Position numbers and translations under genes: made by a program. This document shows, piece by piece, positions 6,614 to 38,485 of a stretch of 38,485 bases of DNA. Source of the DNA: Actinomycetes bacterium (GTDB taxonomy: Bacteria; Actinomycetota; Actinomycetes; Mycobacteriales; Mycobacteriaceae); contig JAHZKD010000160.1 of NCBI GenBank assembly GCA_022600605.1, forward strand, positions 1-38,485, read 5' to 3'. A model generated the notes under the pieces. It was given only the letters and a program-made list of their open reading frames with translations. It was not told the DNA's origin and ran no database searches. Numbering within the stretch: position 1 is the stretch's first letter; every line of letters begins with the position of its first letter.

Positions 6614-9600
6614 TCAGCGGAAATCGCGGCTCCGCGAAGCTACCCGCATGCTGAGTTCGTCCATCCGGTCGGCGATCACGGTGACTGCGCCGGTGGCGTT
6701 CTGCACGATGCCGCGAACCACCAGCGCCGAGGCCGTCTGCGCCAGCCTGCGATGCCGCGACCACACCCCCGGTGAGCACAGCACGTTGACCATCCCCGTC
6801 TCGTCCTCGAGATTCATGAAGGTTACGCCCTGCGCGGTGGCCGGCCGTTGCCGATGCGTGACAGCCCCGGCCACCAACACCCGGGTGCCATCAGGCACCG
6901 ACAACAGCCGGTCGGCGGGAACCACGCCCAGTGCCGCAAGGTCGTCGCGCAGAAACTGGGTCGGATAGCTGTCCGGTGAAACTCCGGTCGCCCACACGTC
7001 GGCTGCCGCCAGCTCCAACTCAGTCATCCCGGGCAGCGACGGGACATGCGACGCCGATCCAACCCCCGGTAGCCGATCAGGTCGTTGCGTGGCGGCAGCG
7101 CCTGCGGCCCACAACCCCTCCCGTCGGGAGACCCTGAAGCTGCCCAGCGCCCCCGCGGTGGCCAGCGCCTCGGTCTGGGGTACAGAAAGTTGCAGCCGGC
7201 CGGTCAGGTCGAGCAGAGAAGCAAAGGGGCCATTCATATTCCGCTCGTCGACCAAACGCTTAGCCAGCTCGTCGCCCAGATGACGAACGCTGCCGAGCCC
7301 GAGCCGCACCTCCAGGCCATGGTTCTCCAGGGTGGCGTGGGCGAGGCTGGCATTGACATCTGGACCCCGGACGACGACACCGTGCCTGCGGGCGTCGGCG
7401 ACAAGCGATTGCGGGGAGTAGAAACCCATCGGCTGCGCCCGCAGGAGCGCGGCGCAGAACGCCGCTGGATGGTGCAGCTTGAACCAGGACGAGTAGAACA
7501 CCAGCGACGCGAAGCTCAGCGAATGGCTCTCCGGAAAACCAAAGTTGGCGAAGGCCTCCAGCTTCTCGTAGATTCGCTCGGCTACCTCCCCGGTGACGCC
7601 GTGCAGTTCGGCCATCCCGTCAAAGAAGCGGTTGCGTAGCCGCCGCATCTTCTCCGTCGAGCGTTTCGATCCCATCGCACGGCGCAATTGGTCAGCCTCG
7701 GCCGCGGAGAATCCAGCGCAGTCGACGGCCAACTGCATGAGCTGTTCCTGGAATAGAGGTATTCCCAATGTTTTTCGTAACGCCGACTCCATACAAGGAT
7801 GGTCGTAGGTGACCTCCTCAAGTCCGTTGCGCCGCCTGATGTACGGGTGTACCGAACCGCCTTGGATCGGCCCTGGGCGGATCAGCGCCACCTCGACCAC
7901 CAGGTCGTAGAACACTCGCGGCTTCAGCCTGGGCAAGGTGGCCATCTGCGCCCGTGACTCCACTTGGAACACTCCGACGGAGTCCGCTCGCTGCAACATC
8001 TCGTACACTGCCTGCTCACCCAGGTCCAGCCTGGACAGATCCACTTCGATGCCCTTGTGCTCGGCCACTAGATCAATGGCGTAATGCAAAGCCGAGAGCA
8101 TACCTAAACCAAGCAGGTCAAACTTCACCAATCCGATTGCTGCGCAGTCATCTTTGTCCCATTGCAACACGCTGCGGTGCTCCATCCGCGCCCACTCGAC
8201 CGGACACACGTCGGCAATCGGACGGTCACAGATCACCATGCCACCGGAGTGGATACCCAAGTGCCTGGGAAGGTTTGAGATCTGCATAGCCAGGTCGACC
8301 ACCTGATCTGGAATACCCTCGATATCGGGTGAGCCTGTGAGGCCGTTCCATCGACTGATCCGCCTACTCCAGGCATCCTGCTGCCCTTGGGAGAATCCCA
8401 GTGCACGAGCCATATCCCGCACCGCGCTGCGGCTGCGGTAGGTGATCACGTTGGCCACCTGCGCAGCGTACTCACGTCCGTAACGCTGGTAGACGTACTG
8501 GATCACGTTCTCTCGCAAGTCAGATTCGATGTCGATATCGATGTCGGGCGGCCCGTCACGGGCCGGCGACAGGAATCGTTCGAACAGCAACTCGTTGGCG
8601 ACCGGATCGACATTGGTGATCTTCAGGGCATAACAGACCGCCGAGTTGGCTGCCGAACCCCTTCCCTGAACCAGGATATTGTTGAGCCGGCAGAATCGGG
8701 TGATGTCGTGTACCACCAGGAAATAGCCGGGAAACCCCAACTGCTCGATGACCTTCAGCTCATGTTCGATCTGGGTGTAGGCGGCCCGGGCGCGCTCAGG
8801 TATGCCGTAGCGGTCTTGGGCACCTTCGGCGACCAAATGTCTTAGCCAACTGTTCTCGGTATGCCCATCGGGTACGTCGAACGGCGGCAATCGCGGCGCA
8901 ATCAGGGCCAGGCCGAAGGCACACTGCTCACCAAGCTCGGCTGCGGCCGTGACCACCTCTGGGCAGTGCGAGAACACCTGTGCCATCTCGTCTCCGGACC
9001 GCAGGTGCGAGCCACCCAGTGGCGCAAGGAAGCCCGCAGATTCATCCATGGCCCGTCTGGCTCGGATCGCCCCCATTGCCATGGCCAAGCGTCCCCGGGC
9101 GGGTTCGGCGAAGTGCGCTGCGGTGGTGGCAATGACACCCAGACCGAAACGGGGGGCCAACTCGGCCAGCGCAGCGTTGCGCTCGTCATCGAGCGGATGG
9201 CCGTGGTGGCTGAGCTCGACGACCACCCGGTCACGGCCGAAACGGTCGACCAGGTCGGCGAGTGCTGCCGCGGCGGCCTCCGGTCCGCCTGTCGAAAGTG
9301 CCTGACGGACATGGCCTTTGCGGCATCCGGTCAGGATGTGCCAATGCCCGTCTGCGGCCTCGCTCAATGCATCGAAGTCGTAGTGCAACTTTCCTTTTTC
9401 GCCCCCGGCCAGATGCGCCGAAGCCAACTGCCTCGACAGTCGTCGGTACCCTTCGGCCCCCCGCGCGAGCACCAAAAGGTGCGGCCCAGGCGGGTCGGGT
9501 TCGTCGGTGCGACTTCCGCCGCCCAGGGACAACTCGGCACCGAACACTGTGGCCACGTCCAGTTCCTTGGCCGCCTCAGCGAACCGCACCACCCCGTAGA

Positions 9601-9995: not shown

Positions 9996-10008
9996 TTTAT
10001 GAGGTTTT

Positions 10009-11154
10009 CTAGACGCCCTTGCCCGTATCCGGCCCGTCATCGGCGCCCAGCGTCGGCAGTACTACGTATCGAACCTGATCACCGCCGGCCATCCGCGCCT
10101 CCTTGATCGCCGTCCTGGCGATCCCGATCATCGTGTCGACCACATTGTCGGGAGGCTCGACCGCCAGCGGCGCCAGCGGCGTGCACACGACGCCGATGCT
10201 CGCGGTCAGGCGCTGTGGCGTGACGGCGATCGCATTGCGGATTCTCTCCACCAGAGGCGAGGCATCGGTGGTAGTGAACGTGTCGGCGACCACGAAATCG
10301 TCATCGTCGAAGTGGGCGACGACCGCGTTGTGCCGAACTGTCTCGCGAAGCGCCTGCGACACCGCTACCTGTGCGCGAACACCTCCTCGCGCACCACCCA
10401 AGCCCAGCACCAGCGAGAAGCTGTCGATGCTCACCGCGACAACGACCAAATACTGGTCGTCGCTGCGGCTGCGCGACGCCAGCAACGTGGCGACGCCCCG
10501 GTAGAACGCCTCGCGATTAAGCAGGCCTGTGAGCTCCTCGGTGTCGTCGAGATAACCGTCCGGCCGAATCAACTTGACCGTCATCCAGCAGGCGAAAGCC
10601 ATGATGACGTTGAGCGCGACCGCCGTCCCCCCGGCGCATACCGCCAGCGCCAGGTCCGTCGACGCCAGCCGCGCAATCAGCACTCCCACCACCACCGCGG
10701 CGATGGTCCAGCTCGCGGCCAGTAGCCGCGGGGTATGCATGAACACTACGAACACCGTCACTACGACGAAGTTCGCGGCAGCAAGGAATCCGAAGAGCGG
10801 GTCGGAGACGATAACGGCGGATAGGCCGATGGCCAACGATCCGACAATCACACAGGTGAGCGACTGCGCCCGGGAAGGCCAAAAGCGACGCAGCCACAAC
10901 GCCGCCATCGCCACACACGAGACGACCACGGCCACGCCGGCGATCGGCATCGCCAAACTATCGGGCCCGGGTCGGCTGACCATCAGCGCACCGAGAATCA
11001 GCCCGAGGGCCGCGAAACACGCTGCTACCAGACGACATGCCCACACCTGCAGACCCCGCGCAGCGAGGACCGCAGTGATCCAGTAGTAGTGATCGGACTG
11101 CAACAGGACAGGGCGCCGAGAAACAGCGAGGGAACTCCGCCGACCATCAATCAT
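10009..11154 (-). CDS. multi-TM protein with degenerate GGDEF domain
   Basis: About six hydrophobic segments fill residues 35-200, followed by a GGDEF-family domain (LTGLLNREAFYRGVA near residue 220, TASIGVV near 315, IARTAIKEARMAGGDQV near 345). Active diguanylate cyclases make c-di-GMP at a GGDEF loop; here that loop reads DDDDF at residues 283-287, with both glycines replaced by Asp. The Gly pair normally contacts GTP, so catalysis is doubtful; a GTP-sensing or dimerising role is possible. The gene lies downstream of htdY on the same strand after a 101-bp gap in which I see no strong signal. I do not recognise a specific orthologue, and the family of the membrane part is uncertain. Confidence 0.8.
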   Translation of the reverse strand: MIDGRRSSLAVSRRPVLLQSDHYYWITAVLAARGLQVWACRLVAACFAALGLILGALMVSRPGPDSLAMPIAGVAVVVSCVAMAALWLRRFWPSRAQSLTCVIVGSLAIGLSAVIVSDPLFGFLAAANFVVVTVFVVFMHTPRLLAASWTIAAVVVGVLIARLASTDLALAVCAGGTAVALNVIMAFACWMTVKLIRPDGYLDDTEELTGLLNREAFYRGVATLLASRSRSDDQYLVVVAVSIDSFSLVLGLGGARGGVRAQVAVSQALRETVRHNAVVAHFDDDDFVVADTFTTTDASPLVERIRNAIAVTPQRLTASIGVVCTPLAPLAVEPPDNVVDTMIGIARTAIKEARMAGGDQVRYVVLPTLGADDGPDTGKGV

Positions 11155-26931: not shown

Positions 26932-28068
26932 TCAGCGTCCGACCGTCAACCCGACCTTCTGGAACTCCTTGAGGTCGCAGTAGCCGGCCTTTGCCATCGC
27001 CCTGCTCAGACCTCCGACAAGGTTGAGCGAGCCGAACGGATCGTCGGACGGCCCGGTCAGCACTTTCTCAAGGGACGGCCGTATACCGCTGGCCACCTCT
27101 AGCAGCGCGCCGCGCGGCAGCGATGGGTGAGCTGCGGCCGAGGGCCAGAACCAGCCTCCCCCGAGCGCTTCCACGGACGAGGCCAGTGGAGTGCCGAGCA
27201 CCACGGCATCCGCGCCACAGGCAATAGCCTTCGCCAGGTCGCCCGATGTGTGGATATCGCCGTCGGCGAGGACGTGAACGTATCGTCCGCCCGTCTCGTC
27301 GAGGTACTCTCGCCGCGCTGCCGCGGCATCAGCGATGGCCGTGGCCATCGGCACACTGATCCCCAAGACCTCGTCGCTGGTAGTGACCCCATCGGTGGAG
27401 CCGTATCCGACGATCACCCCGGCCGCGCCGGTGCGCATCAGGTGCAATGCGGTCCGGTGGTCGAGTACCCCGCCGGCGACCACCGGCACGTCGAGCCCAG
27501 AAATGAAGGTCTTCAGGTTGAGGGGCTCGGCGTCCTGCGCAACGCGCTCCGCAGAGATGATCGTGCCCTGGATAACCAGCAGGTCGATCCCCGCCGACAC
27601 CAGGGTAGGCGTCAACGCCTGTGCGTTCTGCGGGCTGATGCGCACCGCAGTAGTCACCCCGGCATCGCGGATCCGCGCGACAGCCGCGCCGAGAAGGTCG
27701 GGATCTATTGGCGCCGAATGCAATTGCTGCAGCAGCCGGATGGACTCCGACGGGTAGGACTCTTTGTCGGCCACCTCAAGCACCTGGGCGATCTTGTCGC
27801 CGACGTCCGCGTGCCGCCCGATCAAGCCCTCTCCGTTGAGTACGCCGAGACCTCCGAGACGTCCAAGCTTGATGGCGAACTCCACCGAGACCAGTGCGTC
27901 CGTGGGATGCGCGACCACCGGAATCTCGAATCGGTACGCATCGAGCTGCCACGCTGTGGAGACATCCTTCGACGAGCGTGTGCGACGAGACGGCACGATG
28001 TTGATGTCACTGAGTTCATAGGTTCGGCGCGCAGTCCTGCCCATGCCGATTTCGACCATGTCACGCAT
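26932..28068 (-). CDS. guaB3: GuaB3, IMP dehydrogenase-family protein
   Basis: The 378-residue (beta/alpha)8-barrel protein belongs to the IMPDH/GMPR superfamily, without CBS domains, and matches M. tuberculosis GuaB3 (Rv3410c) almost throughout (ELSDINIVPSRRTRSSKDVS, VLADGDIHTSGDLAKAIACGADAV). At the position of the IMPDH catalytic loop GSICTTR it has GYGSTDGVTTSDE, with no Cys, so ordinary IMP dehydrogenase chemistry is doubtful; its role in mycobacteria is unsettled. ATG 28068 has AAGGA nine bases upstream and is preferred to the ATG at 28059, where the M. tuberculosis annotation starts. It lies 31 bp downstream of guaB2, probably in one operon. Confidence 0.93.
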   Translation of the reverse strand: MRDMVEIGMGRTARRTYELSDINIVPSRRTRSSKDVSTAWQLDAYRFEIPVVAHPTDALVSVEFAIKLGRLGGLGVLNGEGLIGRHADVGDKIAQVLEVADKESYPSESIRLLQQLHSAPIDPDLLGAAVARIRDAGVTTAVRISPQNAQALTPTLVSAGIDLLVIQGTIISAERVAQDAEPLNLKTFISGLDVPVVAGGVLDHRTALHLMRTGAAGVIVGYGSTDGVTTSDEVLGISVPMATAIADAAAARREYLDETGGRYVHVLADGDIHTSGDLAKAIACGADAVVLGTPLASSVEALGGGWFWPSAAAHPSLPRGALLEVASGIRPSLEKVLTGPSDDPFGSLNLVGGLSRAMAKAGYCDLKEFQKVGLTVGR

Positions 28069-28099
28069 GCTGATCAGTCCTTGACTGGGCCGGGGGCCC

Positions 28100-29680
<1,581 letters not shown>

Positions 29681-29810
29681 TCAGCCTCCAGTAACAGATG
29701 CGGCCAGGCACAGACTCGACCTGAATGCCACATCTTATCGGCAACGAACTTGGGGTTTCGGTTCGCCCGACGTGCTGCCCAACCGCTGGCGCGATACCTG
29801 GGGAGCTGCG

Positions 29811-29816
29811 TAGTCT
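29811..29816 (+). promoter_or_regulatory. -10 element for a predicted leaderless DUF5319 transcript
   Basis: TAGTCT ends seven bases before GTG 29824, the spacing expected if transcription starts at the start codon. No Shine-Dalgarno sequence is placed for this start, which supports leaderless translation. Confidence 0.45.
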
Positions 29817-29823
29817 TGGGGTC

Positions 29824-30228
29824 GTGCGAGACCATCTGCCACCAGGATTGCCTCCCGACCCGTTCGCCGACGACCCGGCCGACCCGTCGGCGGTGCTCGA
29901 CGCTCTGGAGCCGGGGCAACCGTTGGATGCACAAGAACGCATGGCGGTCGAAGCCGATCTCGCCGATCTCGCGGTCTACGAGGCATTACTGGTACTCAAG
30001 GGCATTCGCGGTCTGGTTGTCTGCTGTGACGAATGCCAGCAAGACCACTATCACGACTGGGACATGCTGCGCGCGAATCTGCTGCAGTTACTCGTAGACG
30101 GCACGGTCCGTCCGCACGAACCGGCATTCGACCCCGAACCCGATTCCTACGTGACGTGGGACTACTGCCGTGGTTACGCCGACGCCTCGCTCAATGAAGC
30201 GACGACGGAGTCCGACGGATATCGCTGA
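29824..30228 (+). CDS. DUF5319 protein (Rv3412)
   Basis: The small 134-residue acidic protein starts VRDHLPPGLPPDPFADDPADPS and contains the conserved block CCDECQQDHYHDWDMLRANL, with three Cys and two His that could bind a metal, then SYVTWDYCRGYADASLNE. It matches M. tuberculosis Rv3412 closely. Its function is unknown. GTG 29824 gives the length and N-terminus of Rv3412; the frame is open further upstream but overlaps the guaB2 promoter region. It is divergent from guaB2 and convergent with rsdA. Confidence 0.92.
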   Translation: MRDHLPPGLPPDPFADDPADPSAVLDALEPGQPLDAQERMAVEADLADLAVYEALLVLKGIRGLVVCCDECQQDHYHDWDMLRANLLQLLVDGTVRPHEPAFDPEPDSYVTWDYCRGYADASLNEATTESDGYR

Positions 30229-30271
30229 GAGCGCTAGCTCCACTTCCGCATCGGCTCGCGGTACCGGCTGC

Positions 30272-31690
30272 TTACGGCACCTCTATTAGCGTCGTGGTGG
30301 TTGGCACCCGCGCAGGTGTCGATGCCGGCGCCGGTCGTTGGGCCTGAGTAGTAGTTACCCGCGTAGGCGCTTGGGTTGTCCTGGGCGCTTGAGTTGCCGT
30401 GGGCGCCTGAGTTGCCGTGGGCGCTTGGGTTGCCGTGGGCGCCTGAGTTGCCGTGGGCGCCTGAGTTGCCGTGGGCGCTTGAGTTGCCGTGGGTGACGGC
30501 GCTGCCGCGGCCGGCGACGAAGACGGCACCGCCGCCGACGAAGGTGCGACAGCCGGTGATGACGAAACCGCTGCTGAAGAGGGTGCAGAAGATGGAGCTG
30601 CAGCCGACGTAGTTGTGGCGGCTGTTGACGGCGAGACACTCGTAGACGGCGACACGCTTGTCGACGCACTCGTAGACGGCGACGCACTCGCAGACGGCGA
30701 CGCACTCGCCGACGGTGACGCACTCGCCGACGGTGACGCACTCGCCGACGGTGAGGGTGCGCTCGCCGAGCTCGGGCTCGGCGATACAGCCGCCGAAGAC
30801 ACGGTGGCCTCCGACAGCGCAGTTGTCTCCGACGGGACACTGCTCTCAGGAATCGCAGCCGCCCGCTGAGGCACACTGTCCTCCGGAACCACAGCCGCCC
30901 CTGAAGGGACACTGCCCTCAGGAACCGCAGCCGCCCCCGAGGGGACATTGGCCTCCGGAAGCGAGGCTGTCCTTGGAGGCGCCGTCGTGAACACCGTGAT
31001 CGACCTATCCGACGGCGGGTTGGTGAGGGTAGCTGGGTCGATGTTCAGCGCCGGTATATCCGGGAACGTCGGCGGCGGCGCATCAGGGGCAATGGTGGCG
31101 GCCGCATCCTGAGCCTCGACCTTGACCGTCAATTCCTGCCACTGGGTGACTAGTTCCTCTTTGCTTTGAACGTCGTTGACCGTAGCCACCGTGGTGGTGA
31201 CCGTTTCCAGCTTGTCCTGAGCGGCCTGCCAGTCACCCTGCTCGATGAGCTGCTGCACCTCTGCCATCCCGGTCTGGGCAGCAAGGATCACCGCGTCGTC
31301 TCGCGTTGCCTGCTCACCGAACAACATGGTTCGCAACCCATACAGCGCGTCGCCTGGGCCGGTGCCGGCGACCACCGCGCCGAATCCGCCAAGGCATAAC
31401 ACTGCGGCAGCTGCCGAACCGACGACAGCCAAGGAGAACCGTCGGCGGCGGCCAACCGATCCGCTGTCCAGCACCCGGGCGGCCTCATCGACGGTGACCA
31501 ACTCCGACGCCGGAGTCTCGCGGACATCGTCGCGCCACCCTGCCAGCAGGGTCGCCAGTTCGGCCTCGCCGCGATCGGTCGGGTAGACCGGCTGCTGCGA
31601 TGCCAGCGCATCGAGGAGCTCATCGGTGCGATTGATCTCGTTGATTGAAGGGTCTCCACCATCGGCGGCCCAGCGTCCGAGGTCAGGCAT
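30272..31690 (-). CDS. rsdA: RsdA, anti-sigma-D factor with expanded extracytoplasmic tail
   Basis: The N-terminal cytoplasmic domain contains a sigma-D-binding helix region (NRTDELLDALASQ, AELATLLAGWRDDVRETPASELVTVDEA). One TM segment follows at about residues 85-110 (FSLAVVGSAAAAVLCLGGFGAVVAG), then a helical extracytoplasmic domain (GPGDALYGLRTMLFG, GDWQAAQDKLETV). This is the layout of M. tuberculosis RsdA (Rv3413c, about 300 residues). Here the protein has 472 residues because of a Ser/Pro/Thr/Ala tail of about 250 residues with three repeat types (VPSGAAxVPE, SPSASA, APTATQ). RsdA is degraded by regulated proteolysis to release SigD. ATG 31690 overlaps the sigD stop, which implies coupled synthesis. 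Confidence 0.9.
   Translation of the reverse strand: MPDLGRWAADGGDPSINEINRTDELLDALASQQPVYPTDRGEAELATLLAGWRDDVRETPASELVTVDEAARVLDSGSVGRRRRFSLAVVGSAAAAVLCLGGFGAVVAGTGPGDALYGLRTMLFGEQATRDDAVILAAQTGMAEVQQLIEQGDWQAAQDKLETVTTTVATVNDVQSKEELVTQWQELTVKVEAQDAAATIAPDAPPPTFPDIPALNIDPATLTNPPSDRSITVFTTAPPRTASLPEANVPSGAAAVPEGSVPSGAAVVPEDSVPQRAAAIPESSVPSETTALSEATVSSAAVSPSPSSASAPSPSASASPSASASPSASASPSASASPSTSASTSVSPSTSVSPSTAATTTSAAAPSSAPSSAAVSSSPAVAPSSAAVPSSSPAAAAPSPTATQAPTATQAPTATQAPTATQAPTATQAPTATQAPRTTQAPTRVTTTQAQRPAPASTPARVPTTTTLIEVP
30385..30492. repeat. six 18-bp tandem repeats in rsdA (APTATQ)
   Basis: GCGCTTGAGTTGCCGTGG and near-identical units start at 30385, 30403, 30421, 30439, 30457 and 30475. They encode six-residue APTATQ repeats near the C-terminus of RsdA. 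Confidence 0.93.
30663..30752. repeat. five 18-bp tandem repeats in rsdA (SPSASA)
   Basis: GACGCACTCGCCGACGGT-type units start at 30663, 30681, 30699, 30717 and 30735, the last three identical. They encode SPSASA hexapeptides in the extracytoplasmic tail; diverged copies continue towards 30615. Confidence 0.92.
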
Positions 31691-32261
31691 GGCCACCCCC
31701 AGTTGCCACAATTTCGGACTTCAGCCGGGCCAGCGCTCGGTGCTGCGCCACGCGCACCGCTCCCGCGGTGCTCCCCACGGCATCAGCAGTCTCCTCGGCA
31801 CTCATCCCTACGACGACACGCAGGACCAGGATCTCCCGCTGCTTCTCGGGGAGAATCTGCAGCAGCTCTTTCATCCGGGCTGACTGCTCGGAATCGATCG
31901 CCAGCTGTTCGGGCCCCGCCTCACCGGTCGAGCTTTCTGGGACGACATCCATCGGATCAGCCCGGTTACGCCCTGCAGCTCTGTGGGCGTCAGCAACCTT
32001 GTGTGCAGCGATGCCGTAAACAAAGGCCAGGAACGGTCGCCCCTGATCCTTGTAGCGCGGCAGCGCCGGGATGGCAGCCAAGCACACCTCCTTTGCAACG
32101 TCATCTGCTGAGAGACCGCTACGCTCCGTGGCCCCCACCCTCGCCCGGCAATACCGGACGATGATGGGGCGGATGGTCGCCAGCACCTCCTGGAGTGCGC
32201 CCCGATCGCCGTTTACTGCATCAGCAACGACAGAATCGAGACGTTCTCTCGAAATAGTCAT
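31683..32261 (-). CDS. sigD: ECF-type RNA polymerase sigma factor SigD
   Basis: The 192-residue sigma factor has region 2 (LQEVLATIRPIIVRYCRARV, AKEVCLAAIPALPRYKDQGRPFLAFVYGIAAHKVADAHRA) and a region 4 helix-turn-helix (LPEKQREILVLRVVVGMSAEETADAVG, AGAVRVAQHRALARLK). It matches M. tuberculosis SigD (Rv3414c), which acts in stationary phase and starvation. Its stop lies inside the first codons of rsdA (ATGCCTGA), the usual sigma/anti-sigma arrangement. GGAGAT about ten bases upstream can serve as ribosome-binding site. The 134-bp gap upstream holds no promoter I can defend. Confidence 0.95.
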   Translation of the reverse strand: MTISRERLDSVVADAVNGDRGALQEVLATIRPIIVRYCRARVGATERSGLSADDVAKEVCLAAIPALPRYKDQGRPFLAFVYGIAAHKVADAHRAAGRNRADPMDVVPESSTGEAGPEQLAIDSEQSARMKELLQILPEKQREILVLRVVVGMSAEETADAVGSTAGAVRVAQHRALARLKSEIVATGGGHA

Positions 32262-32395
32262 CGCTTACGCAATCTCCAGCGTTACGTCGAGGAAACACAT
32301 CCCGGTGGGGGGAGGTGGTTCTGCCGGCAGGCAGACGGCCCCACCACGCGGTGCGGCTCAGCTAAACAATAACGACCAGATGGGGCTCAACCCGG

Positions 32396-33217
32396 TTACC
32401 GCGGACACCACACGCCGCCCTGTCTGATCACGGTTTCGGCAGACATGTCACGGATCGCGGCGAGTTCGGCGTACGAATGCTGTTCGCTGCCGATATCTGC
32501 GAGCAGGTTGGCGACCGCCCAACGCAACGGGACCAGGCCAAACACCGCCGTCTGGAGCAGCGCTTTGTCGGCCGTGCGGCGCGATCCGTCGACGTCACCT
32601 CTGCTACATAGTGCCGCGGCCAGAATGACCTGTGACTTGACGCCGTGCCGCGCTGAGGCCAGGGTCTCGGCGAGTCGCATCGCACGTTCGGCCGCCGCCA
32701 CCGCGGCCATGCCGTCGCCGGTCACCATTGCTAGTTCGGCCGATACCCAGGCAAACCGCACGGGCAATCGGGCCGCCGCCGAATCGGTGACAAGCTCGGC
32801 CGCGTGCAGCAGGGCTCGCACGGAGGCAGCAAACCGCCGCACGCCCAGCGCGTCGGCGGCCAGCCCGATGAGCGCATCGGCGGAAGGGGCAGCGAAGCCA
32901 TTGGCCAGCGTCAGCGCCTGCCCGTCCAACGAACGGGCTCTGTCATGCCAACCGAGCTGACGCAGAAACGATGCTCGCGTACTGAAAGCCAACGAAGCTA
33001 GTGGAGCATTTGCCGCCGATGGCCCACTCGCCGCCAGCCGCTGGAGGTGCCCCAGGTCGGACAGCGCAGTGCCGTAATGACCCTGCCCACCTGCGGCCAC
33101 CGCACGCAACCACAGCTCGTGTGGTGTCGCGGCAGGCGGCAGCGGCCAGCACCCCGGGTTGCTACCGAACGCCACGTCCTCCAGGTCGACTGCGGCCGAT
33201 ACCGGGCTCTTGCTCAT
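32396..33217 (-). CDS. conserved helical-repeat protein (Rv3415c)
   Basis: The 273-residue protein, rich in Ala and Leu, resembles M. tuberculosis Rv3415c. Regularly spaced helices of about 34-40 residues (LWLRAVAAGGQGHYGTALSDL, RASFLRQLGWHDRARSLDGQA, AERAMRLAETLASARHGVK) suggest TPR-like repeats, but no exact TPR consensus is clear. The C-terminus ends in CPR. Function is unknown; in mycobacteria it lies between sigD and whiB3, suggesting a link to starvation or redox response. It is divergent from whiB3 across a 389-bp gap. Confidence 0.82.
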   Translation of the reverse strand: MSKSPVSAAVDLEDVAFGSNPGCWPLPPAATPHELWLRAVAAGGQGHYGTALSDLGHLQRLAASGPSAANAPLASLAFSTRASFLRQLGWHDRARSLDGQALTLANGFAAPSADALIGLAADALGVRRFAASVRALLHAAELVTDSAAARLPVRFAWVSAELAMVTGDGMAAVAAAERAMRLAETLASARHGVKSQVILAAALCSRGDVDGSRRTADKALLQTAVFGLVPLRWAVANLLADIGSEQHSYAELAAIRDMSAETVIRQGGVWCPR

Positions 33218-33606
33218 CGGCTGGGGACGCTACCAAGCCAACAGTTCATTGCGAATTACGTTTGTTAACAATTCATTATCGCGGTGTTACCGACATATCA
33301 ACCACCTTCGGCCCGCCGGTACTGCTCGGCCGACACTGTGTGAACCGGTAAGCCAAAACAGCCGCTCACTTGCACGTCGGCCACCGGTGCTTGCTACCAA
33401 CTCGTTGCCCCCACATCACAACGATGAACGTGATGTAAATTTCGCACGTTTGGCCTGCAGCTATGCACAGCTCCGGGCTGTTGACGTCCAATCCACCACC
33501 CTTCTACTTTATGTGCACGGGCGGTCATCGGCGACTGCACTCGGATCTGTTCCACGACCCACACATCCACTGCGCGAACCGAATATGCCGACAAAGGGGT
33601 TTTCCA
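33218..33606 (+). promoter_or_regulatory. long divergent regulatory region upstream of whiB3
   Basis: This 389-bp stretch has no supported gene. It contains an AT-rich patch (33240-33300) unlike the surrounding DNA, with the perfect palindrome TTGTTAACAA at 33262-33271. Further down, AACGTG (33427-33432) and CACGTT (33445-33450) form a dyad with a 12-base spacer. An AAAGGGG ribosome-binding site lies at 33593-33599. M. tuberculosis whiB3 also has a long leader, as I recall. A frame is open from 33463 into whiB3, but the upstream residues are not WhiB-like, so I treat it as leader. I cannot place the transcription start. Confidence 0.5.
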
Positions 33607-33897
33607 GTGCCACAGCCTCAAGAGCTACCGGGACCGAACGCCGACATCTGGGATTGGCAGATGTCCGGCCTGTGCCGGGGTGTCGATTCATCGATGTTCT
33701 TCCACCCTGATGGCGAGCGCGGTCGCGCCCGCGCGCACCGCGAGATACGCGCCAAGGAGATGTGCCGCAGCTGCCCCGTGATCACCCAGTGCCGCACCCA
33801 CGCGTTGACCGTCGGCGAGCCCTACGGCATCTGGGGAGGTCTCAGCGAAACCGAGCGCGAACTGCTCCTCAAGCGGGGCATTCGCCGCACCGCCTGA
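33607..33897 (+). CDS. whiB3: WhiB3, Fe-S redox/NO-sensing transcription factor
   Basis: The 96-residue protein has the four WhiB cysteines at 23, 53, 56 and 62 (GLCRG, CRSCPVITQC), the same positions as in M. tuberculosis WhiB3. Also present are the GIWGG turn and the C-terminal basic KRGIRRTA. It holds a [4Fe-4S] cluster that reacts with O2 and NO, binds the principal sigma factor and controls lipid and redox metabolism. GTG 33607 (VPQPQELPGPNADIWDW) is chosen because it matches the WhiB3 N-terminus and has AAAGGGG seven bases upstream. It lies directly upstream of the H-NOX operon, separated by 191 bp. Confidence 0.95.
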   Translation: MPQPQELPGPNADIWDWQMSGLCRGVDSSMFFHPDGERGRARAHREIRAKEMCRSCPVITQCRTHALTVGEPYGIWGGLSETERELLLKRGIRRTA

Positions 33898-34024
33898 AAC
33901 GTTTGCAGTGTGCAGTGGCGCGCGATGTCGAGGGAGGGATCGCCAGGTCTTCGGATTCCGACACCATCAGCACGGGACAGGTGACGTTCCAAGCTGACGG
34001 TGACCATCGGTGCCACGATTCGAC

Positions 34025-34065
34025 TCGGCAAAATTGCCGACAACGCAGAAGCGGCGGACTACGCT
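34025..34065 (+). promoter_or_regulatory. candidate promoter and operator of the H-NOX operon
   Basis: TCGGCAA (34025-34031) and TTGCCGA (34034-34040) form a 7-base dyad with a two-base spacer. CCGACA (34037-34042) and TACGCT (34060-34065), 17 bp apart, are a plausible -35/-10 pair, so the dyad overlaps the -35. A GAGAGG ribosome-binding site follows at 34075-34080. The rest of the 191-bp gap after whiB3 shows no clear terminator, so read-through from whiB3 is also possible. Confidence 0.4.
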
Positions 34066-34088
34066 TTACTGCCTGAGAGGTGGTTCAG

Positions 34089-36956
34089 GTGGCGAGGACC
34101 GACGCTGAAGTGCCTTTGGTTTGGTGGAGTCGCAGTGCGGTGGCGGTGGGGCTCGCGATTGCCCTTGCCACTTGGCTGGGTTGGGCGACCGGTGTCGAAC
34201 AGTTAACCCAGATTCGTCGCGACTGGCCGCACATGACGCCGTGGACCGCTGCGCTCCTGGCCGGATTGGGAATCGCCATTCTGCTGCAGCTGGGGCAGCA
34301 GTCACGCCCCCGGGCGTGGATCGCTCGTGCCGTCGCCGCGTTGACCGGCGGGCTTGCGGCGGTGTTCCTGGCGGAGTACGCCACCGGTCGAGGGTTCGGA
34401 CTAGACCGGATGTTGTTCTCCGATGCGGTGAGCGCACTGCAGGAAAGCTGGCCCGGGCGCCCGAGTCCCCAGACGGCGATGTCAGTTCTGGCGCTGGCGG
34501 GGGCAGTCGCGCTACTGAGACTGGAGCGCCGCTGGATTCCGGCAGCTTGGCCTTTGAGTATCGCGATTGCTGCGGCCCTTCCGCTTGTCGCGATCGCGGC
34601 CTACATGTTGGACGCTGCTCAGATGGTGAGCGTCACGTCGTCTACCGGTATGGGCAATTCGACTTCGATCGCCATGATGCTCCTGGTCGCAGCGACTCTG
34701 TTTGCGCGCTCTGATCGTAATCCGGTGGCTTGGGTGGTGGCGCGGCCCGACCGCAGAGTCCTGGCGACGGTAGTCACCACCTTCGCGGTCCTTCCGATCT
34801 GGGTTGCCGCCTGGCGGACCCTGTTTCTGGCGGTTGGCTTGCAGGGCGATGCGGCGTGGGTGCTGTCGCTCGCGTTGACGGCCCTCCTTCTCGGAGCTTC
34901 CTCCTTCTTCATCACCCGGAATGTCCAACAGCTGTTGATCGACAAGTTGGCGCAGAGCCGCCAACGCGCCGAAGCCGAGCACCAACGTGCCGAAGCCGAG
35001 CACCAACGCGCTGAAGCCGACGAGCGGTATCGGATTCTTGCCGAGAACTCCATCGATGTTGTCGTTCACCTGCGGGGTAGCGAGCCGGTCTGGGTTTCAC
35101 CGTCGATCGAGCCGGCGTTCGGTTGGACCCCTCAGAAGTGGATCGGCGCCGACTTCAGCCCCCGCATCCACCCCGACGATCTCGACACGGTCTTCGGCGC
35201 ACTAGCTGAGATCGCCCAAGGCAAAACGGCGGTCGCGCGGTTTCGCATCGCGACCGCCGATGGCGGTCATCGCTGGGCCGAAGGCCACGGAAAGCCCTAC
35301 ATCGACGTCGAGGGCAACACCGATGGGGTGATCGTCGCGGTACGCATCATCGAGGCTCAGGTCGCGGTGGAGCGGGAGCTTCAACAGGCACGTGACGAGG
35401 CCATTGCGCTGACGGAGTCGAAGTCCGACTACGTGGTGACGGTCAGCCACGAGATCCGCGCTCCATTGCACGCAATACTGGGCTTCTCCGAATTGTTGGA
35501 TAACCAGCTGTCGTCTGAGGGCCGTAACCTCGCCGCCGAGTGGTCCAGGCTGGTCCGTACGGAGGCAGAACGTCTGACACGCCTCATCGAAGATCTCCTC
35601 AACCTCTCCCGACTGGAGGCCGGCAAGACGAAGATCGACTCCACGGCGTTCGCGCTGCGCAAGGTGGTCGACGACGTGATCCAGGTCTCCAGATTCAAGG
35701 CGGAGGCAAAGGGGCTGAAGCTCAACAGCTCGGTCGACCCGAACATCCCGGATTGGCGAACCGGAGATCCTGACAAACTGCACCAAGTGCTGATGAACCT
35801 TGTGTCCAACGCGACGAAGTTCACTCGTGAGGGCCGCATCGACGTAGAGATTTCATCGGGGGCCACCGAGACGGCGGCAGATCTGGTCCGGTTCGCTGTA
35901 ACCGATACCGGGCCGGGGATTCCCGGTGAAGAAATCGGCCGGATTCTGGAGCCTTTCAGGCAGGTGTCGGCCTCCGACGCCGACCGAGGCAGCGGCCTGG
36001 GACTGGCGATCTCCGACAAGATCGTCCAGGCCCTCGGCGGCGAGGGCCTCGGCATCGCGAGCCTCGAGGGCCACGGGACGACCTTCCACTTCACCATTGC
36101 GTTGCCGGAGTCGGAGCCCAATGCACCCGCATCCATTAGGGAGATGGCCGAAACCGCAGAGACCGGTTCGGTGAGGACCATCCTCGTCGCCGACGACAAC
36201 CCGACGAACCAATTGCTGGTCGAGGCACAACTCAAGAAACTCGGCTACGCGTGTGACATCGCGTCCAATGGAGCGGAAGCCCTGGAACGCCTCGAAACGG
36301 GCAGCTTCGAGGCGGTACTGATGGACTGCAATATGCCGGTGATGGACGGATATGAGGCGACCCGCCGTATCCGGGCCCGGGAGCGCGGCACCGGGGTTCA
36401 TCTACCTGTTCTCGCGCTCACGGCGTCTGCGATGGATGCCAACCGCGATGCTTGCGACAGGGCCGGAATGGACGGATTCCTGACCAAGCCATTGCTCCTA
36501 TCCGAACTTGCCAAAGAGCTCACTCGCTTCCTGGGCACTAGTGAGGCAGACGGCTTGAGTCCCGAAACCGACGCCGGCGATTCAGGTCCGAACGGGTCGA
36601 ATGTGCACATCCTCGATGGGGCGCATATCGATCGGCTGGCCGAAGAACTCGGAGCCGAACCATTGCAAAAGGTTGTTTCCACCTTCACCGCTGAAATGCC
36701 ACGGCGCCTGGCCGAGCTGTCGCGGGTGGCAGCCGAGGAGGACCCCGACGCGGTACGGCGCAGCGCTCACGCTCTCCGCTCCCCTAGCGCGATGCTAGGC
36801 GCGGCCGCGTTGGCTGATCGGCTCCGAGTTGTCGAGGAGGCCGAAGATCCTGTCTCGAGACTGTCCGAAGTGCGGCTCGATGACCTGATTGATGCGACCA
36901 TGGAGCAACTGCACGCGAGGATTGGGCAAGCTGTGGATCAAGGAGGAGCCCCATGA
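34089..36956 (+). CDS. membrane hybrid histidine kinase (8TM-PAS-HisKA-HATPase-REC-HPt)
   Basis: The 955-residue protein combines a whole phosphorelay. About eight TM helices cover residues 8-285, followed by a coiled-coil linker with a threefold QRAEAEH repeat and a PAS domain (about 312-435; YRILAENSIDVVVHL, IHPDDLDTVF). HisKA has His454 (SHEIRAPLHAILGF). The ATPase has the N-box with Asn574, then VTDTGPGIP and GSGLGLAISDKI. The receiver has Asp746 (LMDCNMPVMDGYEA), preceded by VADDNPTNQ and followed by LALTA and FLTKPL. The HPt has His894 (AHALRSPSAMLGA). GTG 34089 has GAGAGG eight bases upstream; GTG 34080 is in frame but overlaps that site. The stop overlaps the H-NOX ATG (ATGA), so it is the likely partner kinase. 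No linked output regulator is seen. Confidence 0.93.
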   Translation: MARTDAEVPLVWWSRSAVAVGLAIALATWLGWATGVEQLTQIRRDWPHMTPWTAALLAGLGIAILLQLGQQSRPRAWIARAVAALTGGLAAVFLAEYATGRGFGLDRMLFSDAVSALQESWPGRPSPQTAMSVLALAGAVALLRLERRWIPAAWPLSIAIAAALPLVAIAAYMLDAAQMVSVTSSTGMGNSTSIAMMLLVAATLFARSDRNPVAWVVARPDRRVLATVVTTFAVLPIWVAAWRTLFLAVGLQGDAAWVLSLALTALLLGASSFFITRNVQQLLIDKLAQSRQRAEAEHQRAEAEHQRAEADERYRILAENSIDVVVHLRGSEPVWVSPSIEPAFGWTPQKWIGADFSPRIHPDDLDTVFGALAEIAQGKTAVARFRIATADGGHRWAEGHGKPYIDVEGNTDGVIVAVRIIEAQVAVERELQQARDEAIALTESKSDYVVTVSHEIRAPLHAILGFSELLDNQLSSEGRNLAAEWSRLVRTEAERLTRLIEDLLNLSRLEAGKTKIDSTAFALRKVVDDVIQVSRFKAEAKGLKLNSSVDPNIPDWRTGDPDKLHQVLMNLVSNATKFTREGRIDVEISSGATETAADLVRFAVTDTGPGIPGEEIGRILEPFRQVSASDADRGSGLGLAISDKIVQALGGEGLGIASLEGHGTTFHFTIALPESEPNAPASIREMAETAETGSVRTILVADDNPTNQLLVEAQLKKLGYACDIASNGAEALERLETGSFEAVLMDCNMPVMDGYEATRRIRARERGTGVHLPVLALTASAMDANRDACDRAGMDGFLTKPLLLSELAKELTRFLGTSEADGLSPETDAGDSGPNGSNVHILDGAHIDRLAEELGAEPLQKVVSTFTAEMPRRLAELSRVAAEEDPDAVRRSAHALRSPSAMLGAAALADRLRVVEEAEDPVSRLSEVRLDDLIDATMEQLHARIGQAVDQGGAP
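34962..35024. repeat. three 21-bp repeats in the kinase coiled coil
   Basis: Units CAACGCGCCGAAGCCGAGCA... at 34962, 34983 and 35004 encode three heptads (QRAEAEH, QRAEAEH, QRAEADE) linking the last TM helix to the PAS domain. A change of whole heptads would keep the coil register, so the length could vary without breaking signalling. Confidence 0.88.
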
Positions 36957-37489
36957 AGGGCGTGCTGTTCAACGCCGTTGAGGAAGCGGTATCGCGCGAG
37001 TGGAGTGAAGATCTGTGGGATGACCTACTGATCGCAGCCGATGTGGACGGGGCTTACACCGCTCTGGGAAATTACCCCGACGCCCAACTGGTTGCGCTGG
37101 CCAATGCTGCAGCCGAACGCCTGAGTTCTCCGGTCGAGGATGTCCTGCGGACGCTGGGAAGGATAACCTTTGAACCTCTTTTTGCCCGTTACGGGGGTCT
37201 CATGGAGGAGCCCACATCGCTACGCGAATTCCTTCCCATACTCGAAGAATTGATTCACCCCCAGGTGCTGAAGCTCTACCCGGGAGCTTCGGTCCCACGA
37301 TTCGTGCTCCGCGAGAACGGAGCCGACCTTGAGTTGGACTACGTGTCAGTGCGGAACATGTGCACCCTCGCCGAAGGACTAATTCAAGGGGTCGCCGATC
37401 ACTACGGTGAAACCGTGGCAGTGGACCAGCCGAGCTGCAAACAGCGCGGCGACTCCCGCTGCACCATACGAATCAAGCCCGCGGCTTGA
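36953..37489 (+). CDS. H-NOX (heme nitric oxide/oxygen binding) sensor protein
   Basis: The 178-residue protein is a complete stand-alone H-NOX domain. It begins MKGVLFNAVEEAV and has proximal heme ligand His102 (LIHPQV), Pro115 (packs against heme) and the propionate-binding Y-x-S-x-R motif as Tyr130, Ser132, Arg134. Spacing agrees with Thermoanaerobacter H-NOX (His102, Pro115, Tyr131, Ser133, Arg135). The O2-stabilising distal Tyr140 of that protein corresponds to Leu139 here, so stable O2 binding is unlikely and NO is the predicted ligand. Cys137, Cys162 and Cys170 align with three zinc-site Cys of proteobacterial H-NOX; the His ligand is Gln159. Bacterial H-NOX proteins bind and inhibit or activate a neighbouring kinase or cyclase. 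Start and stop overlap both neighbours by four bases. Confidence 0.94.
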   Translation: MKGVLFNAVEEAVSREWSEDLWDDLLIAADVDGAYTALGNYPDAQLVALANAAAERLSSPVEDVLRTLGRITFEPLFARYGGLMEEPTSLREFLPILEELIHPQVLKLYPGASVPRFVLRENGADLELDYVSVRNMCTLAEGLIQGVADHYGETVAVDQPSCKQRGDSRCTIRIKPAA

Positions 37490-38163
37490 GCGGGCCTGCT
37501 GATCGGCCCGCGGCCGTTGAGCGCCTTGAGCGCCGCCTTGCCCGCGAGCGGGCCGCACGACTTCAGGCCGAGGCCATCGCAGAGCGTGTCACCTCGGATC
37601 GCTGGGAGCTCCAGCAGCAGCTGGAGGAGAAGCTCGCTCTGCGGACCTCGGAATTGGAGGCGGCGAGGCGGACCGCAGCCGAGGCGGTGAGCGAGCAAGA
37701 GCGTTTCACCGCGGCAATATCTCACGACCTCCGAACCGCGCTGGGGGCGCTGTTTTTTCTGGCCGATTCACTGTCCCCGGAGGAGCCGCCGAGCGCGCAG
37801 CAGCTTGAGCAACTGCGGAACCTGCTCGCGGACATGCGAACCGTCATGGACTTCCAGGCGGGCGCTACGACCGCTGAGGACGCCGACACCGGGCGCCGGG
37901 TCGCTGCCGGCAACAGCCCCGCCTCTCCTATGACGCTTGCAGACGTCATCTCAGCCCACGAGGGGACCTGGCATCAGGTCGCCGCCCGCGCCGGCAAGTT
38001 ATTGATGCTCGACATACAAACCCCCGCCAGCCAGGTGAACGCTGGTCTCGGGGACGAGGTCGATGAGATCGTTCTAGGTGTAATCCATCATCGGTTGGAT
38101 GCTTCTGAGCCGGTGATCGAGCTGCATCTCACGGTCGACGCCGGAGCCTTGCAGGTCACGTAG
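37486..38163 (+). CDS. small coiled-coil/HisKA protein with degenerate or missing ATPase
   Basis: The 225-residue protein starts with TTG overlapping the H-NOX stop (TTGA). Residues 10-75 form a charged coiled coil (RLERRLARERAARLQAEA, ELEAARRTAAEAVSEQERF). A HisKA-like helix follows with His80 (FTAAISHDLRTALGALFFL). After residue 120 there is only a vestige of an ATPase domain (DEVDEIVLGVIHHRLDASEP), with no N-box Asn, no G1 DxGxG and no G2. It may be a phosphoacceptor or dimerisation partner for the hybrid kinase, or an H-NOX-binding scaffold. It could also be a decayed kinase, but the frame is intact and tightly coupled. No TM segment is visible. Confidence 0.75.
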   Translation: MSGPADRPAAVERLERRLARERAARLQAEAIAERVTSDRWELQQQLEEKLALRTSELEAARRTAAEAVSEQERFTAAISHDLRTALGALFFLADSLSPEEPPSAQQLEQLRNLLADMRTVMDFQAGATTAEDADTGRRVAAGNSPASPMTLADVISAHEGTWHQVAARAGKLLMLDIQTPASQVNAGLGDEVDEIVLGVIHHRLDASEPVIELHLTVDAGALQVT

Positions 38164-38164
38164 C

Positions 38165-38485
38165 CTACCGACGCTGGGCCGCGTCGCTGCAAACCACCAC
38201 GTTTCGGCCCGATTGCTTGGCCCGATACATCGCGGCGTCGGCGCGGGCGGTTGCTTCGGTAGCCGACTCACCCGGAACGGTGATGGTGGCGCCGATGCTC
38301 AGCGACAAATGAATGGACGTTCCGCGGTGCTGGATCGGCTCGGTGGCCCGGCAACGAATTTTCTCGGCGATCTTGGTGACCTCGCCCAGGTCGAGCACAC
38401 CAGGCAGCAGAACGAGCAGCACGTCCTCGCCCACGCGTCCCAGGGTGTGGGACGGGCGGATACATTCGTGGCTCCGGACCGCGAC
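38165..38485 (-). CDS. C-terminal part of a GGDEF-domain protein, degenerate motif, cut by window end
   Basis: The frame is open to the last base, so the N-terminus is outside. The visible 106 residues are a GGDEF domain: LGRVGEDVLLVLLPGV holds the active-site loop, read as GEDVL instead of GGDEF, followed by LSLSIGATI and ADAAMYRAKQSGRN, which are canonical. With the second Gly, the Glu and the Phe replaced, cyclase activity is unlikely unless another site compensates. It converges on the H-NOX operon with a one-base gap between stop codons. H-NOX genes in other bacteria are often linked to c-di-GMP enzymes; here the strand is opposite, so co-function is only suggested. Confidence 0.85.
   Translation of the reverse strand, partial: VAVRSHECIRPSHTLGRVGEDVLLVLLPGVLDLGEVTKIAEKIRCRATEPIQHRGTSIHLSLSIGATITVPGESATEATARADAAMYRAKQSGRNVVVCSDAAQRR

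Follow-up and report, generated by a model that had tools for sequence, protein, structure and literature searches.

A mycobacterial H-NOX gene set between a hybrid histidine kinase and a predicted ATP-dead kinase-like adaptor

Organization of the locus

The DNA analysed here, called the window, spans positions 1 to 38,485 of contig JAHZKD010000160.1 from GenBank assembly GCA_022600605.1, which belongs to an actinomycete of the family Mycobacteriaceae. Close to its end, downstream of whiB3, the window carries a set of three genes (the trio) encoding a hybrid histidine kinase, an H-NOX protein, and a small kinase-like protein (Table 1). The kinase and H-NOX genes overlap by 4 nt (ATGA), as do the H-NOX and small-protein genes (TTGA). 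An earlier note, made from this sequence, had described an H-NOX phosphorelay operon placed after whiB3 in a mycobacterium, and Pfam matches together with a sequence check of the overlaps bear out its three genes, their coordinates, and their domains. These include a hybrid kinase with all relay modules and a complete H-NOX, which matches PF07700 over positions 1-162 of 163. The start coordinate of 33607 in the note includes whiB3 itself. That gene, recognized by an 88-bit match to the Pfam family Whib, ends 182 nt before the start of the hybrid kinase gene.

Table 1. Features of the trio and its flanks in the window.
Feature	Position	Strand	Basis or remark
whiB3	33607..33897	+	flanking anchor, no constant partner of the trio
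Hybrid histidine kinase, 958 aa, GTG start	34080..36956	+	Pfam
Kinase PAS domain	35088-35333	+	
Kinase HisKA domain	35424-35624	+	
Kinase HATPase_c domain	35763-36107	+	
Kinase REC domain	36180-36518	+	
Kinase Hpt domain	36672-36896	+	
H-NOX, 178 aa	36953..37489	+	PF07700
His102 codon, predicted proximal heme ligand	37256..37258	+	alignment
YxSxR motif (Y130, S132, R134)	37340..37354	+	alignment
Predicted Cys3-Gln zinc site span (C137, Q159, C162, C170)	37361..37462	+	alignment
Predicted ATP-dead kinase-like adaptor, 225 aa, TTG start	37486..38163	+	43-member family, fold matches to kinase cores
H-NOX-partner coil (RRLxRExxARxxAEAIAE type)	37501..37626	+	profile matches
His80 codon of adaptor, phosphoacceptor-type	37723..37725	+	family alignment
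GGDEF protein, C-terminal part, convergent	38165..38485	-	contig end cuts gene

The hybrid kinase is a membrane kinase, with six hydrophobic N-terminal segments in a hydropathy analysis. Its HisKA, HATPase, REC, and Hpt modules retain the catalytic residues of a hybrid phosphorelay, and the phosphoacceptor His, the N, G1, and G2 boxes, the REC Asp, and the Hpt His are present in seven of seven orthologues. The best 25 of 131 NCBIfam matches to this kinase all fall below their cut-offs.

The window (contig C283) is part of a 5.05 Mb assembly of 565 contigs that is 88% complete with 7% contamination, and the whole assembly contains a single match to HNOB, the H-NOX family PF07700. Window genes from 26932 to 33897 match what we take to be the M. 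tuberculosis order guaB3-guaB2-Rv3412-rsdA-sigD-Rv3415c-whiB3, after which groEL1 presumably comes next in that species. Because the GC content of the trio (63.6%) is near that of the window backbone (64.8%), nothing points to very recent arrival from a foreign source, and recent acquisition of foreign DNA was rejected as an explanation. A pattern scan of positions 33850-38300 for a promoter shared with whiB3 returned no sigma-70-type site, a scan that is uninformative for mycobacterial promoters. Terminator-like sites in the same interval numbered three, compared to 2.7 in shuffled sequences.

Distribution of the trio

A survey of PF07700, proposed in the earlier note, was run on the genus and found HNOB in 22 of 396 genomes, the window's own included (15 of 361 high-quality genomes). 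When the neighbourhoods of all 21 other H-NOX genomes were compared, the trio order was found to be kept in six, giving seven carriers among the 396 genomes. In these six relatives, identity to the window proteins is 71-80% for H-NOX, 57-66% for the kinase, and 51-62% for the small protein. The arrangement is not a chance one, because the same gene order recurs in six other genomes. The remaining 15 genomes encode an H-NOX that is about 40% (38-44%) identical and lack the trio; they constitute a second mycobacterial H-NOX clade (loci L023-L042).

A scan of GTDB, from which 80 of 261 confirmed loci were kept, yielded the trio in five of the 80, all mycobacterial: Mycolicibacterium xanthum Y57, Mycobacterium sp. 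PO1, the metagenome-assembled genome HK-STAS-ACTI-10, M. iranicum H39, and M. palauense CECT 8779. Genome G084 is the sixth trio-carrying relative. In a tree of 97 H-NOX sequences, both mycobacterial groups form clades with support of 99-100 from the SH-like approximate likelihood ratio test. The two stand apart in the best tree, although a single clade is not rejected by the approximately unbiased test (p-AU 0.449). A search of plasmids for H-NOX gave 17 records of at most 45% identity, none of them mycobacterial.

The earlier note gave H-NOX as known mainly from proteobacteria, cyanobacteria, and clostridia. Mycobacteriaceae H-NOX proteins were already placed in a network group in print in 2020 and 2022 (PMC7108781 and PMC8738867), and NCBI already annotates H-NOX in M. 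iranicum, M. palauense, and M. obuense. In contrast, the trio itself is rare. The note had also stated that its proposal would fall if the operon proved widespread and already described in mycobacteria. One half of this applies, in that H-NOX of the family is in print. For the trio, no description was found in the literature on H-NOX with mycobacteria or actinobacteria, which was covered mainly at the level of titles, with subscription journals thinly represented.

Variable linkage to whiB3

The distance from whiB3 to the kinase gene start is below 2 kb only in the window and in Mycobacterium sp. PO1 (1.3 kb), where one reverse open reading frame intervenes. In M. palauense, whiB3 and the trio are separated by two genes, one of the ArsR family and one for an E1-E2 ATPase; the separation amounts to 10-14 kb in both M. 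xanthum and M. iranicum. In G084, whiB3 is located 2.8 Mb from the trio, and in the carrier G209 the two are on different contigs. The interval from whiB3 to groEL1 ranges from 1.9 to 31.6 kb in 14 genomes (10 without H-NOX and four trio carriers). The trio is inside this interval in M. xanthum and M. iranicum, as well as in M. palauense and PO1, where groEL1 is on the same contig. It is outside the interval in G084 and G209. Linkage to whiB3 is thus not constant among the carriers.

The earlier note proposed that the operon provides a second nitric oxide (NO) input tied to WhiB3 at one locus. The proximity of the trio to whiB3 in the window speaks for such an arrangement. However, because the distance and the intervening content vary between carriers, with two of them having whiB3 far away or on another contig, a partnership with WhiB3 is not indicated. 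We rejected such a partnership on these grounds and consider it very improbable that the locus gives WhiB3 regulation a second NO input.

The H-NOX protein

The match of the H-NOX protein to PF07700 scores 118.3 bits against a cut-off of 25.5 (E 4e-34). NCBIfam gave no match for either H-NOX or WhiB. All 30 aligned H-NOX sequences share five residues without variation, namely His102, Pro115, Tyr130, Ser132, and Arg134. The first of these aligns with His103 of Shewanella H-NOX, and the last three form the YxSxR motif, which acts at the heme. Shewanella H-NOX (2kii, 4u99) is also the closest solved sequence. An AlphaFold2 model of the window protein, with a mean confidence (pLDDT) of 84, has 4u99 as its top PDB match (template-modelling score 0.84, E 5e-14), which places the predicted structure in the H-NOX fold. 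We infer that the window H-NOX binds heme and NO. Presumably, Leu139 lies at the position of Tyr140 in the O2-binding H-NOX of Thermoanaerobacter. Because a leucine replaces this distal tyrosine, the heme is predicted to be NO-selective and not O2-binding.

A second potential sensing feature is a zinc-type site. C137, C162, and C170 are invariant across the 19 rows of alignment A2 and, together with Gln159 at the fourth-ligand place, occupy the positions of the zinc ligands in Shewanella and Vibrio H-NOX. PMC7108781 reports a zinc pattern of three Cys plus His or Gln in H-NOX, groups a Mycobacterium sp. H-NOX with proteins that conserve the zinc ligands, and describes oxidative activation at such a site. 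These features are consistent with a protein that serves mainly as a thiol/zinc redox sensor, as proposed for the heme-free H-NOX of Vibrio cholerae. However, the heme ligand and the YxSxR motif are invariant as well, and we regard a mainly redox function as unlikely.

A kinase-like protein that ends ahead of the G boxes

The third product had been described as a small HisKA protein. The HisKA match is present (27.6 bits, with the cut-off at 26.9), but the description is incomplete, as the protein has the features of a kinase without G boxes that carries an H-NOX-linked coil. No HATPase_c match was found with Pfam for the window protein. It belongs to a family of 43 members of 188-239 amino acids, and on this basis truncation by a sequencing or assembly error was rejected. 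His80, Arg83, and Thr84 are present in all 43 members. In contrast, the N-box Asn is found in two of 43 small proteins compared to four of the four nearest full kinases, and the small proteins reach only 0-10 residues at or beyond the G1 column. A DxGxG string occurs in nine of the 43, where it is located upstream of the place of the N box and not at G1. Thus, from the set of residues expected in an active kinase, the phosphoacceptor His is present, whereas the N, G1, and G2 boxes of HATPase are not. The predicted structure comprises an N-terminal coil, a DHp hairpin, and half of a CA domain that ends before the G1 box. Among the 50 fold matches listed are RetS, DivL, and GacS. RetS acts on GacS, and RetS and DivL are regulatory or pseudo-kinases.

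As judged from its sequence, the third product is thus a kinase that has been conserved in a form cut off ahead of the ATP-binding G boxes. H-NOX is flanked by an active-type hybrid kinase upstream and a predicted inactive kinase with a partner coil downstream.

Phosphotransferases of the Spo0B and ChpT types likewise combine a DHp region with a degenerate ATPase domain. It is conceivable that the small protein is an H-NOX-gated enzyme of this kind that connects the hybrid kinase with another regulator by phosphate transfer. The universal phosphoacceptor His, the missing G boxes, and the predicted DHp hairpin with half of a CA domain would all be expected of such a protein. However, an Hpt domain is already part of the hybrid kinase. 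In addition, Spo0B and ChpT are absent among the 50 listed fold matches, which is not in itself grounds for exclusion. On balance, a phosphotransferase role seems improbable.

A coil that tracks H-NOX

The small protein starts with a coil of approximately 40 residues. A hidden Markov model of residues 6-66 of the 43 small proteins was run on 13,263 stop-to-stop frames from 96 H-NOX loci, and for the counts five loci that duplicate others in the same genomes were set aside beforehand. Matches were called adjacent when they were directly downstream of H-NOX, within 350 nt and on the same strand. Adjacent matches were found in 82 of 90 non-trio H-NOX loci at E<=0.01 and in 71 of 90 at 1e-3. Counted per reading frame at E<=0.01, there are 88 adjacent matches, six of which are the trio's own. 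The motif common to 21 sequences is RLxRRLxRERxARxEAEAIAERGLRDLY, wherein R12, R15, E16, R20, E24, A27, and E28 are invariant.

A profile of these 21 sequences was also applied to 22 whole genomes that carry H-NOX. The top match adjoins H-NOX in all 22 and is the sole match in 20. Among 17 genomes of the genus that lack H-NOX, none has a match below 1e-3. Each of the seven trio genomes has one match, at the small protein; the hybrid kinase did not score. Ten proteins from H-NOX loci were scanned for domains, including six coil-bearing partners, which proved to be HATPase-REC proteins (two), HisKA-REC, HisKA_3, GGDEF-EAL, and SpoIIE proteins. Because these partners differ in output type, the coil tracks H-NOX and not one particular output. 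The simplest reading is that the coil would serve as a docking site for H-NOX. No account of a partner coil was found in the H-NOX literature searched, mostly at title level, including the passages of PMC2828450 on the signalling helix of soluble guanylate cyclase.

Several observations weigh against an exclusive association of the coil with H-NOX. With the first model, two reading frames (L079 and L036) have a non-adjacent match at E<=0.01, as does one at 1e-3, and the number of non-adjacent matches is 15 at E<=0.01 if every domain row is counted. Six loci (L028, L055, L069, L081, L106, and L111) have no adjacent match at E<=0.2; a later coil profile recovered one in the genomes of L028 and L106. 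Regarding the whole-genome comparison, six of the 22 genomes had supplied sequences to the profile, and in three the scoring covered 150 of 234-286 candidates. Two genomes hold, between them, three additional matches that are weaker and located away from H-NOX, and one H-NOX-less genome has a match at 0.008.

These data also bear on the possibility that H-NOX acts directly on the hybrid kinase, in the manner of HnoK-type kinase systems, and that the small protein represents what degeneration has left of the former H-NOX partner kinase. The 4-nt overlap of the H-NOX and kinase genes, the loss of catalytic boxes from the small protein, and the mostly full-size coil partners found elsewhere are in agreement with this possibility. 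However, the size of the small protein, its H-box His, Arg, and Thr, and a coil whose positions are largely invariant or nearly so are conserved across the 43 members, which argues against a leftover. Furthermore, direct action is at odds with a coil profile that, in the seven trio genomes, recognizes the small protein and not the hybrid kinase. We consider this explanation to have a small chance of being correct.

Association with polysaccharide genes

Downstream of the trio, five of the six relatives encode a convergent OmpR-family regulator and a pair of STAS proteins, together with polysaccharide genes. The latter encode GT1-type and GT2-type glycosyltransferases, a Polysacc_synt flippase, and a polysaccharide pyruvyl transferase. 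Families were assigned by Pfam in M. xanthum, and orthologues elsewhere were located by tblastn. The regulator consists of REC plus Trans_reg_C in five of five cases. At its end, the cluster encodes a multi-pass membrane protein of 1086 amino acids (L173:12257-15517 and orthologues) that is 72-81% identical among carriers and has no Pfam match. The trio in G209 stands alone, without the cluster. The flippase is present in seven of 392 genomes (E<=1e-60), namely six trio genomes and G032, in which there is no H-NOX match. The hypergeometric probability of this overlap is 1e-11, a value that ignores relatedness and treats the draws of 396 and 392 genomes as the same. IS21-type transposition genes adjoin the polysaccharide cluster of G032 (L170:8565-11065).

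Cluster genes are also found in the genome of the window. Its contig C69 carries the regulator, cut at the contig edge, followed by both STAS genes, GT4, and GT2 in the order seen in relatives. Contig C473 carries the flippase and pyruvyl transferase and shares a 133-base end with C69. Adjacency of the window and C69 is unproven because no shared end was found. Contigs C473 and C29 overlap by 903 bases at only 94.5% identity, and the assembly for this reason holds more than one strain. C29, which carries groEL1, may come from another strain.

In two other actinomycete loci, L073 and L121, H-NOX and a coil partner are found together with a related kinase and a regulator of the OmpR type. In the former (L073:6242-12619), the regulator and the coil partner are accompanied by an HNOBA-PAS hybrid kinase, a separate gene for Hpt, and H-NOX genes at both 6964-7560 and 10001-10540. 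This arrangement is possibly an ancestral layout.

Proposed mechanism

We propose that H-NOX docks on the coil of the cut-off kinase, and that the H-NOX-bound coil would alter DHp pairing or phosphate exchange between this adaptor and the hybrid kinase. The adaptor might act by forming heterodimers with the hybrid kinase or by exchanging phosphoryl groups with it, in a way comparable to the action of RetS on GacS. Phosphate would then pass from REC to Hpt and on to the OmpR-family regulator, for which the polysaccharide genes are the likely target, with surface polysaccharide as the presumed output. The pair of STAS proteins suggests an extra partner-switching step. Because the trio usually adjoins polysaccharide-making genes, NO would likely adjust surface polysaccharide, although the direction of its effect, on or off, is not predictable. 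We would give this chain, working as one NO/oxidant switch, about an even chance of being right. A broader proposal is that the docking coil is an N-terminal element on the proteins that follow H-NOX across bacteria, that in mycobacteria one such partner became an ATP-dead adaptor, and that NO controls the exopolysaccharide cluster through phosphate and not cyclic di-GMP (c-di-GMP). This more extensive claim is offered tentatively and falls somewhat short of an even chance.

If the proposed mechanism is correct, the locus offers a concrete and testable system with a sensor, an adaptor, and a kinase, to which most carriers add a regulator and a candidate target cluster. The coil provides a sequence rule that predicts H-NOX partners, as well as a short interface to test. 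The kinase-dead adaptor would be an example of how an existing phosphorelay can be placed under a gas sensor.

Relation to known systems

The locus is a variation on H-NOX signalling and not a new kind of sensor. As in the H-NOX/HnoK systems of Shewanella and Vibrio, a stand-alone H-NOX with the Shewanella fold and a zinc-type site of three Cys plus Gln or His is encoded beside histidine kinase genes. However, the usual partner place here encodes a kinase lacking the ATP-binding boxes, while a complete hybrid kinase is encoded separately, upstream of H-NOX. An OmpR regulator and polysaccharide cluster are also nearby. The HqsK system of Vibrio parahaemolyticus resembles the proposed mechanism in that H-NOX acts through a hybrid kinase and a relay of several steps, but its output is quorum sensing, and the passage on it in PMC8738867 names no kinase-dead adaptor. 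The second mycobacterial clade shares a coil-bearing partner downstream of H-NOX, whereas its three scanned partners are GGDEF-EAL, HisKA_3, and SpoIIE proteins. By analogy with RetS/GacS and DivL, a protein with a kinase fold would be expected to regulate a hybrid kinase; unlike those proteins, the one described here stops short of the G1 box, and its coil links it to H-NOX. Within the literature searched, the conserved trio, the kinase-dead adaptor, the association with a polysaccharide cluster, and the H-NOX partner coil are new.

Other features of the window

Contigs C275, C364, C217, C247, C415, and C214 of the window's genome encode six paralogues of the convergent GGDEF protein next to the trio, each 49-58% identical to the fragment in the window. 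In the six trio relatives, no protein of this type exceeds 38% identity and none is encoded beside the trio. Because the type has multiplied in the window lineage in this way, c-di-GMP may add to the output there only.

Further upstream, the likely anti-sigma-D protein (30272-31711) has a long low-complexity tail that is composed of Ser/Ala/Pro and ATQAPT repeats.

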